Shown: positions 18,295 to 21,790 of the stretch, one piece after another | Layout: each line of letters begins with the position of its first letter | How positions within the stretch are numbered: position 1 is the first letter of the stretch | Source of the DNA: a virus | Length of the DNA stretch: 27,430 bases | Strand: one strand, 5' to 3' | IMG/VR virus record: IMGVR_UViG_3300030430_002235 | Span: 1 to 27,430 of that record | Notes under the pieces: generated by a model | What the model was told of the DNA's origin: nothing | What the model saw: only the letters and a program-made list of their open reading frames with translations | Databases searched by the model: none | Made by a program: the position numbers and the translations under genes

Positions 18295-18346
18295 GTTACT
18301 ATAGCTTGACGCTCACGTTCGTTCGCTTATCCTTTTTTATAGTAAC
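18295..18346. repeat. Inverted repeat GTTACTATA / TATAGTAAC before the first early gene
   Basis: Perfect nine-base arms at 18295-18303 and 18338-18346, 34 bases apart, the right arm ending 14 bases before the ATG at 18361. TTGACG at 18305-18310 resembles a sigma-70 -35 element, but no -10 lies at the right spacing. The paired sites could bind a dimeric regulator or form a loop in the early leader. No TAnnTTTG box is visible for this strand. Confidence 0.5.
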
Positions 18347-18360
18347 TTATTTTATTAATT

Positions 18361-18846
18361 ATGTCGAAAGCTCGCAAAGCTTCTCAGAGCAGCAAGGCTG
18401 CTTCTGAGAAACGCTCGCAGGGTGCGAAAACCCCTGCAATGTCTTCGATGCTAGCGCATCTTGACAGTCTTGGTGTTTCTACACCTCGTCTTGCCGCTCA
18501 GGCAGGTATCTTCACTGGCTCCGCCACCGAAGAACCTAAGCCTTTTACTAAGCAAGACGGCACTTCAGGTTTGTCGTGTATTTTCCACAGTTCCTGTGGA
18601 AACTACAAGCATACCTTACTAGCAAGTATGAACGACCAAGGTCGCTATACTTTGCTAGACGGTATTGCTATCGACAACCAACTTGAGTCGCTTGCCCATC
18701 TGTTCGATGGTCGCGACATCAAGTTCGCAGTAACCGAAAACGGCAAGACCGTTTCCACTACTGCGTTCAATGCCTACGGATTATCGCAGTCTAACGACAG
18801 CTCAAACCGTAGTCGTCTGTTATCACGACTAACTAGTCGTAGATAA
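18361..18846 (+). CDS. First early gene; G+C-rich, unknown function
   Basis: A 161-residue protein. The first 30 residues are Ser/Lys/Ala-rich and probably disordered. The centre (about 60-140) looks like a small beta-rich domain ('GTSGLSCIFHSSCGNYKHTLL', 'RDIKFAVTENGKTV'), and the end is Ser/Arg-rich ('SNRSRLLSRLTSRR'). Counting the first 60 bases gives 53% G+C, against roughly one third around it. Arg is mostly CGN and Asn AAC, whereas the operon genes prefer AGA and AAT. This suggests recent transfer or adaptation to very high early expression. The last codons and stop lie in a 12-pair hairpin (18819-18847). I do not recognise a family; a host-takeover protein is a guess from its first position. 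Confidence 0.75.
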   Translation: MSKARKASQSSKAASEKRSQGAKTPAMSSMLAHLDSLGVSTPRLAAQAGIFTGSATEEPKPFTKQDGTSGLSCIFHSSCGNYKHTLLASMNDQGRYTLLDGIAIDNQLESLAHLFDGRDIKFAVTENGKTVSTTAFNAYGLSQSNDSSNRSRLLSRLTSRR

Positions 18847-18847
18847 C
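18819..18847 (+). repeat. Hairpin covering the stop codon of the first early gene
   Basis: GTTATC (18819-18824) pairs with GATAAC (18842-18847), and CGACTA (18826-18831) pairs with TAGTCG (18834-18839), with a one-by-two internal loop. The TAA stop at 18844-18846 is inside the stem. It could protect the message 3' end or influence termination. Confidence 0.6.
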
Positions 18848-18879
18848 AAACTTTCTTGGATGTGATGCTAACACATCAC

Positions 18880-18906
18880 GGGGCAGTCTTGCGACTGCCT
18901 CGTTTT
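18880..18906 (+). terminator. Terminator of the first early gene
   Basis: GGGGCAGTC-TTGC-GACTGCCTC (18880-18901) forms nine pairs including one G-U, followed by G and four T. A GTGATG/CATCAC hairpin (18862-18867 / 18874-18879) precedes it. The T-run is short, so termination may be partial. Confidence 0.6.
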
Positions 18907-19189
18907 CCATTGGCCACAGGCTGTAAAGATACTATAGAAAGACTGTATAATAAGTCAATGCAACCCAAACGGACAAGTATTTGGCATCCATTGACAACAG
19001 CATCTGTAGTTTTTGCGTGTATGCACGAGTCTGTGAAGGTGTGTCAGATACCCTTTTCAGGCTACATATTAAGCAAATAAGTACATTTTTACTACTAATA
19101 ATTAGTTTAACTTGCTGATTTACAGTGAGTTAGGCTTCTTATTAGGTCTGTAGTCCAAAAAAAAAGTATTAACTATTTATTTAAATGTT
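18907..19189 (+). other. Non-coding stretch with several RNA hairpins
   Basis: No convincing gene. A 74-codon frame opened by TTG at 18856 overlaps the terminator and reads poorly. Structure seen on the plus strand: GTCAATG (18954-18960) pairs with CATTGAC (18989-18995), with CCAAA/TTTGG (18965-18969 / 18980-18984) inside it behind a symmetric four-by-four internal loop. AACTTGCTG (19109-19117) pairs with CAGTGAGTT (19123-19131), nine pairs including two G-U. It may be one or two small RNAs or the leader of the gene at 19190. No promoter box of the TAnnTTTG type was found. Confidence 0.45.
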
Positions 19190-20577: not shown

Positions 20578-20729
20578 AAAAGATAGTTAAAGATTCAAAT
20601 GGAATACCAATCGGTTATGGCTACGGCTTTTGGGATTGGGTAGGTTTTGTAGCAGTTATAACTTGCACAGTTAGTGTGATTGCTACTGTTTGCATAACAT
20701 TATTAACAACAACATTTCAAGTTTTATGA
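20574..20729 (+). CDS. 51-residue single-pass membrane protein
   Basis: ATG at 20574 overlaps the previous stop (ATGA), and the frame ends in TGA at 20727-20729. The protein begins with a short charged segment, has a Gly/aromatic stretch 'GYGYGFWDWVGF' and then a hydrophobic Val/Ile/Thr/Cys segment of about 25 residues that can span the membrane. Coupling on both sides makes it a real gene despite its size. A holin-like or inhibitory membrane peptide would fit, but nothing proves this. Confidence 0.65.
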   Translation: MKKIVKDSNGIPIGYGYGFWDWVGFVAVITCTVSVIATVCITLLTTTFQVL

Positions 20730-20908
20730 TGTCTAAGCGTGATAGAATTTTTTGGTGTTTAGTATTGCTTGGTATAGTGTGTGTCTTATGGCACATACTA
20801 GCCAGCTATACAGTTAGTTATATAGTAGAGTTGGGACTAATAATCTCAATTTTTACTACCATTGTTTTTATGGGTAGTCTCATAATAGATGATGATAAAA
20901 TAAATTAG
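20726..20908 (+). CDS. 60-residue two-pass membrane protein
   Basis: I start this at ATG 20726 (or the adjacent ATG 20729), which overlaps the previous stop. An upstream TTG at 20690 would extend it by 12 residues but would place a long overlap and a polar tail before the membrane segments. The protein has a basic start 'MMSKRDR', a first hydrophobic segment (about 9-28), a short turn, a second segment (33-53) and an acidic end. Two membrane spans and small size suit holins, antiholins or exclusion proteins. It is the last gene of the envelope unit; its stop codon is already inside the first stem of the RNA pseudoknot. Confidence 0.62.
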   Translation: MMSKRDRIFWCLVLLGIVCVLWHILASYTVSYIVELGLIISIFTTIVFMGSLIIDDDKIN

Positions 20909-20941
20909 GCTTTGAGAGTTGCCTAACGCGACTAAAACTCT
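20905..20941 (+). other. H-type RNA pseudoknot
   Basis: Stem 1 is TTAGGC (20905-20910) with GCCTAA (20921-20926). Stem 2 is AGAGTT (20915-20920, within the loop) with AACTCT (20936-20941). Loop 1 is four bases, there is no base between the stems, and loop 3 is nine bases: ideal geometry for coaxial stacking. It starts at the stop codon of the last envelope gene. Confidence 0.65.
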
Positions 20942-21030
20942 TGACACTTGACTTTACGGAATCTGCAGTTCTATTGGTCACTCATTGAAATAGCATACGT
21001 TGACTTGACTATTTATGTGTAAAGAGTGTC

Positions 21031-21081
21031 CTATAATATGGATGTGTGTCCATACTGATGATTCCAAAAGGATGAATATAG
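21031..21081 (+). other. Hammerhead-like three-way junction
   Basis: Order: CTATA (21031-21035), A21036, hairpin TATGGA/TCCATA (21037-21054), CTGATGA (21055-21061), hairpin TTCC-AAAA-GGAT (21062-21073), GAA (21074-21076), TATAG (21077-21081), which pairs with CTATA. This is the strand order of a hammerhead with stem III open. Two near-invariant positions differ: 15.1-16.1 is U-A instead of A-U, and 10.1/11.1 is U-U instead of G-C. It may be inactive or only a look-alike. Confidence 0.4.
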
Positions 21082-21256
21082 ATAATATAAATATAGTAGG
21101 CTTAAAAATAAGCACACCTTAATGACGATTGAGTGTTGGAGACGAACTACTAGTGTTAGTGGAGTGGTGCACCGCTCGCGACTAACCTAACAAACCCTAG
21201 TGGCCTACTATTAGCATAAAGAATCCGTAATTCCTGAACAAAGGTTGGGTTTTTTT

Positions 21257-21316
21257 GTAGCAAGTAGCAAGTTGTGTATGAGGTTCTTAGCCCTCCCTTC
21301 TTGCTTACTTAGCTAC
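21257..21316 (+). repeat. Fifteen-pair hairpin in the leader region
   Basis: GTAGCAAGTAGCAAG (21257-21271) pairs with CTTGCTTACTTAGCTAC (21300-21316), with two single-base bulges, over a 28-base loop that contains GAGG/CCTC. It follows directly on the T-run of the large RNA. It could be a separate RNA or part of the same one. Confidence 0.6.
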
Positions 21317-21326
21317 TTTATTTAGA

Positions 21327-21351
21327 ATATAAGGATTGTATCCTTTTATAT
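21327..21351 (+). repeat. AT-rich hairpin, possible weak terminator
   Basis: AAGGAT (21331-21336) pairs with ATCCTT (21340-21345) over TGT, extended by ATAT/ATAT after a two-base bulge. The plus strand continues with TTTTATATAA, so weak termination is possible. Confidence 0.45.
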
Positions 21352-21370
21352 AATAACCCTTCCTTTTAGT

Positions 21371-21452
21371 GAGATTAATGGAAGAGTGGTAAAGCATGGC
21401 AGTATTTTTCTAATACTTGTTTTTACTGCCTTTGCTTTACTTGTTAAATCTC
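21371..21452 (+). repeat. Long three-part hairpin just before the replication operon
   Basis: GAGATT (21371-21376) pairs with AATCTC (21447-21452). GTAAAGC (21389-21395) pairs with GCTTTAC (21434-21440), and GGCAGTA (21398-21404) with TACTGCC (21424-21430). An alternative inner pairing AGTATT/AATACT also exists. It ends 14 bases before the ATG at 21467, so it may control entry into the operon. Confidence 0.6.
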
Positions 21453-21466
21453 TGGTTGAATATTAA

Positions 21467-21790
21467 ATGATTTTAAAAGTGAATTTAAAAGAGAAAGATG
21501 AAGAAAAGTTAGTTGCTACGCTTCAGAAGCTACAGACAACTGAACGACAAACTAAACATGCGAAGTTTACTGAGCTGTTTAAGAAACTGCGTGACTGTGA
21601 TGTAAGTTATATTATGTCTAAGAAACGCAAGAACCTTGTAGACTTTATAGTATATAAAGGTGTAAAGATGAAGTTGATTTGGTTCAACAATGATGTGTAT
21701 TTACAGATGCCTGGTGGCTCTAGAGAATACGGGATTAGTTTTGCAAACAAAATATTAACAGAAAAAACAATTGATATATGTGTGGATTAG
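21467..21790 (+). CDS. Small protein at the head of the replication operon
   Basis: A 107-residue protein, charged and helical for the first 50 residues ('KDEEKLVATLQKLQTTERQT'), with a beta-like second half ('KRKNLVDFIVYKGVKMKLIWF'). There is no known motif. A frame overlap of 13 bases with the amidotransferase gene means that the two are coupled. It follows the long hairpin at 21371-21452, so its translation or transcription may be regulated by it. I do not recognise a family. The same segment contains no better frame. Confidence 0.6.
   Translation: MILKVNLKEKDEEKLVATLQKLQTTERQTKHAKFTELFKKLRDCDVSYIMSKKRKNLVDFIVYKGVKMKLIWFNNDVYLQMPGGSREYGISFANKILTEKTIDICVD

Follow-up and report, generated by a model that had tools for sequence, protein, structure and literature searches.

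Hammerhead ribozymes are RNAs that cut themselves. ROOL and OLE are large structured RNAs, GOLLD and ROOL form RNA cages, and GOLLD is often located near phage tRNA genes. Symmetric kissing loops have been described for OLE, ROOL, and GOLLD, with palindromes for OLE and GOLLD (PMC12286853). A natural hammerhead with a U15.1-A16.1 pair self-cleaves slowly (Perreault et al. 2011, PMC3088659), and in vitro such variants lose at least a factor of ten in rate (PMC3088659). U10.1-U11.1 mismatches are tolerated in hammerheads, and phage PaP3 is listed among the active hammerhead variants (PMC3088659). In a literature search, no paper linking GOLLD with hammerheads was found.

The window (the whole stretch of 27,430 nucleotides that was analyzed) belongs to a virus record of 58,248 bases (IMGVR_UViG_3300030430_002235, which may be incomplete). 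Phage PaP3 carries an element near-identical to a hammerhead in the window, with three stems, an open stem III, the core CUGAUGA...GAA, and the loops UGUGUG and AAAA in common. When compared with named phages by blastn, a 37-nt stretch (21040-21076) had a nearly identical intergenic match in about 70 Pseudomonas bruynogheviruses, and in these, too, a stem adjoins stem III on the 5' side. The window hammerhead differs in having U-A instead of A-U at 15.1-16.1, in scoring under the Rfam cut-off, and in its fusion to a pseudoknot with a three-way junction, both conserved, which were not seen in the bruynogheviruses.

The gene-free block and its surroundings

The hammerhead lies in a block at 20905-21466 (+ strand) between the ORFs 20690-20908 and 21467-21790; a 107-aa ORF and a glutamine amidotransferase-like gene are found downstream. 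A preliminary description had considered the block gene-free, which was borne out, all internal ORFs being 45 aa or shorter. The terminase was distantly related (<60% identity; ~30% in the best matches) to those of crAss-like, Flavobacterium, Cellulophaga, and Bacteroides phages, and judging by these distant relatives, the host probably belongs to Bacteroidota. No tRNA was found in the window, the plasmid comparison yielded chance-level matches only, and the promoter and terminator scan showed no excess.

Another stretch of the window, 18340-18920 (+), was hyper-structured (z = -11.1 over 581 nt), with a G+C of 0.47 vs ~0.33 in the surroundings. It sits where two operons diverge and contains a 161-aa ORF (18361-18846), for which Pfam and named-phage searches gave no relative. 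In syntenic relatives sharing the amidotransferase and helicase genes, the hammerhead module was sought and was absent, other structured spacers being present instead. Structured gene-free blocks were located upstream of the amidotransferase gene in four relatives (L019:3267-3763, L020:2978-3470, L021:1467-1866, and L026:336-699); the first three are mutually related (76-94% identity) and unrelated to the window block.

The block had been described as one ornate RNA of 558 nt, based on a set of helices. Both of the named repeats exist, i.e., TTACGGA (20954-20960) with TCCGTAA (21224-21230), and the nine-pair repeat ATAGTAGGC (21093-21101) with GCCTACTAT (21203-21211). By simple arithmetic, about ten perfect 7-bp complements and 0.6 nine-bp ones are expected in 560 random bases, and because chance yields helices of such length, the repeats alone are weak evidence. 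The TTACGGA closing stem was rejected: it overlaps the covarying hairpin P2b (20958-20972) and is thus probably not a native pairing.

Folding of the whole block gave z = -3.1 for the + strand and z = -4.4 for the - strand, and the mean z of 120-nt windows was -1.17 inside the block vs -1.01 outside. Folding energy was rejected as evidence, since it is non-specific and fails to single out the block, so the case must rest on comparison. The helices supported by comparison are P1 (20943-20948/21025-21030), P2, P3, and the hammerhead stems.

For the 3' part (21082-21466, 385 nt, + strand), neither the named phages nor the loci compared gave a homologue. It showed no sequence similarity to the bodies that follow the junction in L030, L247, L248, and L140, and was rejected as a homologue of a GOLLD, L248, or L140 body. 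Its folding z of -2.94 compares with an average of -2.61 over 38 stretches of 383 nt elsewhere in the window, 10 of which folded at least as well. Hairpins are possible at 21093-21211, 21255-21325, and 21366-21456. The preliminary description had proposed covariation in homologues as a check; covariation was found for 20905-21081, and no homologue for 21082-21466. The first third of the block is a real RNA element, and the remainder, as well as a 558-nt ornate RNA across 20905-21466, is unproven.

The hammerhead and the upstream three-way junction

The hammerhead core had been overlooked in the preliminary description. The ribozyme (21031-21081, + strand) is a type III hammerhead with a U15.1-A16.1 pair, identified by the bruynoghevirus match, by a core shared among 122 phage hammerheads, and by a match to RF00008 that stays under the cut-off. 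Stem III (21031-21035/21077-21081, CUAUA/UAUAG) is open and followed by H17 (A21036), with the predicted cut at 21036|21037. Stem I (21037-21042/21049-21054, UAUGGA/UCCAUA) has the loop UGUGUG and leads to CUGAUGA (21055-21061), stem II (21063-21065/21070-21072, loop AAAA), and GAA (21074-21076). The bases C3 U4 G5 A6 N7 G8 A9...G12 A13 A14 and H17 are all present, the stems are paired, and their order is that of type III. There is also a U10.1-U11.1 mismatch. The A15.1-U16.1 pair is absent, which is no bar to hammerhead membership, because the natural U15.1-A16.1 variant has been published as slower but active. The RF00008 (Hammerhead_3) score was 22.2 bits (E 8.3e-4), the sole match in the 58-kb record and below the curated cut-off of 48.5 bits; two hammerheads of L029 with the canonical pair were also under the cut-off (42.4 and 35.1 bits).

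Pattern scans, with a filter for four of the five stem III pairs, yielded 122 hammerheads, no two of them identical and almost all from viral contigs. The A15.1-U16.1 pair was present in 115 of them and U15.1-A16.1 in seven, including the window; none was mismatched. The swap is common to the window, L150, L030, and L027/L028. U15.1-A16.1 hammerheads were also seen in genome contigs of Candidatus Gottesmanbacteria and Shapirobacteria (L243:6376-6410, - strand, and L244:476-510).

Upstream of the hammerhead on the same strand, the hairpin P0 (20905-20910/20921-20926) was read by hand in all four members of the family examined (the window, L150, L140, and L030). Its loop (20915-20920) can pair with 20936-20941 in three of the four, and the letters of this pseudoknot are changed in the window, L150, and L030. 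The 5' pseudoknot of the preliminary description thus gained support from three hand-read homologues. The element (20905-20941) stands directly 5' of P1, which closes a three-way junction (20943-21030) with P2 (20949-20953/20976-20980), P2b (20958-20962/20968-20972, loop CUGCAG), and P3 (20988-20995/21006-21014). The 3' strand of P1 adjoins stem III of the hammerhead.

The viral contig L150, obtained in the second scan, was 75% identical over 186 nt (window 20906-21091, E 2e-33), a similarity that spans the hammerhead and 130 nt upstream. In two-sequence folding of the window and L150, 10 of 39 pairs were doubly compensated, with all cells paired (0/500 in shuffles), and slid-structure controls failed. 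A covariance model of the junction, R1, was trained on the same two sequences. Its independent finds were, in a search of 1.0 Mb, L140 at 79 bits (E 3e-15) and L030 at 74 bits, and later L260, L261, and L272. In the four hand-read members, P1, P2, P3, and hammerhead stems I and III were fully paired. L140 has the canonical A-U pair and a wholly different P1 (GCUCUC/GAGAGC), and stems III and I covary across the window, L150, and L140.

The P3 hairpin, the P2 loop, and giant phage RNAs

The P3 hairpin with its surroundings (20980-21019, + strand) has the conserved loop AUAC-N-UUGANUU and a UUG/A internal loop, and is supported by covariation and by a match of 53.2 bits to a second model, R2. 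A pattern derived from P3 matched 30 viral contigs, a few of them being unrelated A+T-rich matches. The loop was kept, with small exceptions, in 15 distinct aligned copies, and these had 41 doubly changed cells vs 13.3 in shuffles (0/500). The hairpin occurs ahead of hammerheads, before GOLLD, at the head of an RNA of ~0.8 kb, and directly after tRNA genes. It was absent from the typical GOLLD loci L154, L157, and L158 and from the other hammerheads searched. The copies directly 3' of a phage tRNA gene (L253:8157-8196, L254:7680-7719, L259:8484-8523 on the - strand, and L264:12859-12898 on the - strand) are possibly processing or binding tags.

The P2 loop contains a 6-nt palindrome in four of six lineages (CUGCAG, UUGCAA, CUAUAG, and UGCGCA), for which simulation with loop limits set by hand gave a chance of ~2e-4. 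The RNA could dimerize through this loop, which resembles the symmetric kissing loops of ROOL, OLE, and GOLLD (PMC12286853). The junction, whose P3 loop is conserved and whose P2 loop is often palindromic, is probably engaged in a contact of tertiary, dimer, or protein type.

Kinship with GOLLD or ROOL had been suggested earlier, with a search of the Rfam covariance models, GOLLD and ROOL included, as the check. No family passed gathering in the window, and the large-RNA families yielded nothing within 20800-21600 at E ≤ 10, where a divergent partial relative could escape. The GOLLD model RF02032 (conserved 3' region, 416 positions) had no match in the whole record at E ≤ 10. The block was accordingly rejected as GOLLD and, for lack of a covariance-model match, as ROOL or another Rfam family. 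The lack of any Rfam large-RNA match sets it apart from ROOL and OLE, and the window has no tRNA gene of the kind near which GOLLD is often found. The typical GOLLD loci, in turn, lack P3 and the hammerhead. What held of the suggestion is that a conserved structured RNA is present, and that its type of 5' junction stands directly upstream of GOLLD in L030 and L247 (spacing 414 and 408 nt). These two loci align over 760 nt (74% identity), with a hammerhead in between in L030 and another stem in its place in L247. The pattern used for collecting GOLLD gave ten matches, three of them true GOLLD loci, none with an upstream hammerhead. The proposed extent did not hold, as homologues and unusual energy were both missing beyond 21081.

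The same three-way junction and P3 hairpin were found at the 5' end of a gene-free RNA of ~0.8 kb in five viral contigs (L248:654-1420; L256:4245-5011; L269:9857-10455; and, on the minus strand, L252:2673-3439 and L258:2168-2934). Its body of ~0.7 kb is unlike the window, and a simple hairpin replaces the hammerhead. Of 203 predicted pairs, 45 were doubly compensated. Rfam gave no match at E ≤ 0.01 for L248 and L269 and none at gathering for L252, L256, and L258, named phages did not match L248, and L256 had no ORF longer than 61 aa. The RNA is apparently undescribed and a candidate for a new class of giant phage RNA.

Probable self-processing and alternative readings

We consider 20905-21081 to be a co-transcriptional self-cleavage module ahead of a downstream RNA, with a probability of about 0.7. 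Transcription through it would form the pseudoknot and the three-way junction, with P1 ending at stem III, and the hammerhead would then sever itself after A21036. This would leave the upstream transcript with a compact structured 3' end (P0-P1-P2-P3) and give the downstream RNA a defined 5'-OH end starting with stem I. The module appears portable, in that phages set it before different RNAs: in L030 it is followed by GOLLD, in L140 by a short RNA ending in a terminator, in L150 by a coding gene, and in the window by the uncharacterized 385-nt block. Transcription, cleavage, and the purpose of cleavage are what we infer from the conserved structure, covariation, core, and contexts, and so is the rate: in-cell cleavage of the window hammerhead is not assured, given the in vitro rates of U15.1-A16.1 variants, which are reduced at least ten-fold (PMC3088659). 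The sub-cut-off Rfam score, the small number of whole-module homologues, and the minimum-energy fold of the window sequence alone, which prefers another structure (-29.1 vs -23.6 kcal/mol for the consensus), speak against the module.

A modified form of the earlier idea, compatible with self-processing, is that 20905-21452 is one GOLLD-like giant non-coding RNA with the junction as its head, a hammerhead trimming the 5' end, and a diverged body (21082-21452). The order junction, hammerhead, GOLLD in L030 fits this, as does the junction ahead of GOLLD in L247 and of the ~0.8-kb RNA in the L248 group. It is nevertheless doubtful: the record lacks GOLLD even at E ≤ 10, the body resembles none of those in L030, L247, L248, and L140 and folds unremarkably, and the variant hammerheads of L150 and L028 lie shortly before coding genes, so a hammerhead needs no RNA body. 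An ordinary spacer with chance helices would explain the unremarkable folding energy; the covariation and the hammerhead core make it highly improbable for the block as a whole, and for 20905-21081, covariation refutes it, while 21082-21466 may be such a spacer.

It is unlikely that the hammerhead fold of this group has lost all or nearly all of its catalysis and persists for a structural or protein-binding function, e.g., as a leader controlling downstream genes. The U-A swap, whose published effect is a loss of activity (PMC3088659), recurs in the window, L150, L030, and L027/L028, three of which belong to the junction family. However, the remaining core bases are intact in all these sequences, the variant has been published as active (PMC3088659), and L140, L260, L261, and L272 retain the active A-U pair within the same architecture. 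Even less probable is a junction RNA that serves transcription antitermination or binds polymerase, in the manner of put or nut sites, and aids polymerase through long untranslated regions until the hammerhead removes it. That the junction or the P3 hairpin precedes long untranslated RNAs and directly follows tRNAs agrees with such a role, but this support is purely contextual, the L150 junction precedes a coding gene, and none of the known antitermination sequences was recognized.

Beyond the self-cleavage module itself, the pseudoknot and junction, with the AUAC...UUGANUU loop of P3, may be an undescribed module and a common 5' head of giant phage RNAs (GOLLD, the L248 group, and hammerhead-processed ones). 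Through the palindromic P2 loop, the head would recruit these RNAs to a partner that they share or assemble them into homo-oligomers, and the hammerhead would be one joint among several that can be exchanged between head and body. We put this tentatively, at slightly less than an even chance. A separable module of ~130 nt in GOLLD, in an apparently undescribed giant RNA, and in ribozyme-bearing RNAs offers a handle for cloning, pull-down, and mutation, and with a hammerhead between head and body, some giant phage RNAs would process themselves.

Stem-loops (p ≤ 0.05) were located directly 5' of 58 of 119 phage hammerheads vs ~6 expected, a count inflated by related contigs. This fits a processing role, and with about half of the hammerheads placed directly 3' of a stem-loop, a general use as processing points in phage transcripts is suggested. 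A cut at such a site would put the stem-loop at the 3' end of the upstream RNA, and the downstream RNA would start in stem I with a 5'-OH; in the window, the junction replaces the stem-loop. Three or more hammerheads within a few kilobases were seen in L029, L055, L071, L096, L114, L120, and others, often with a stem-loop of the kind GGGNGGUGUCU..AGACACUNCCC immediately before the hammerhead, and these phages are candidates for having transcripts punctuated by hammerheads.
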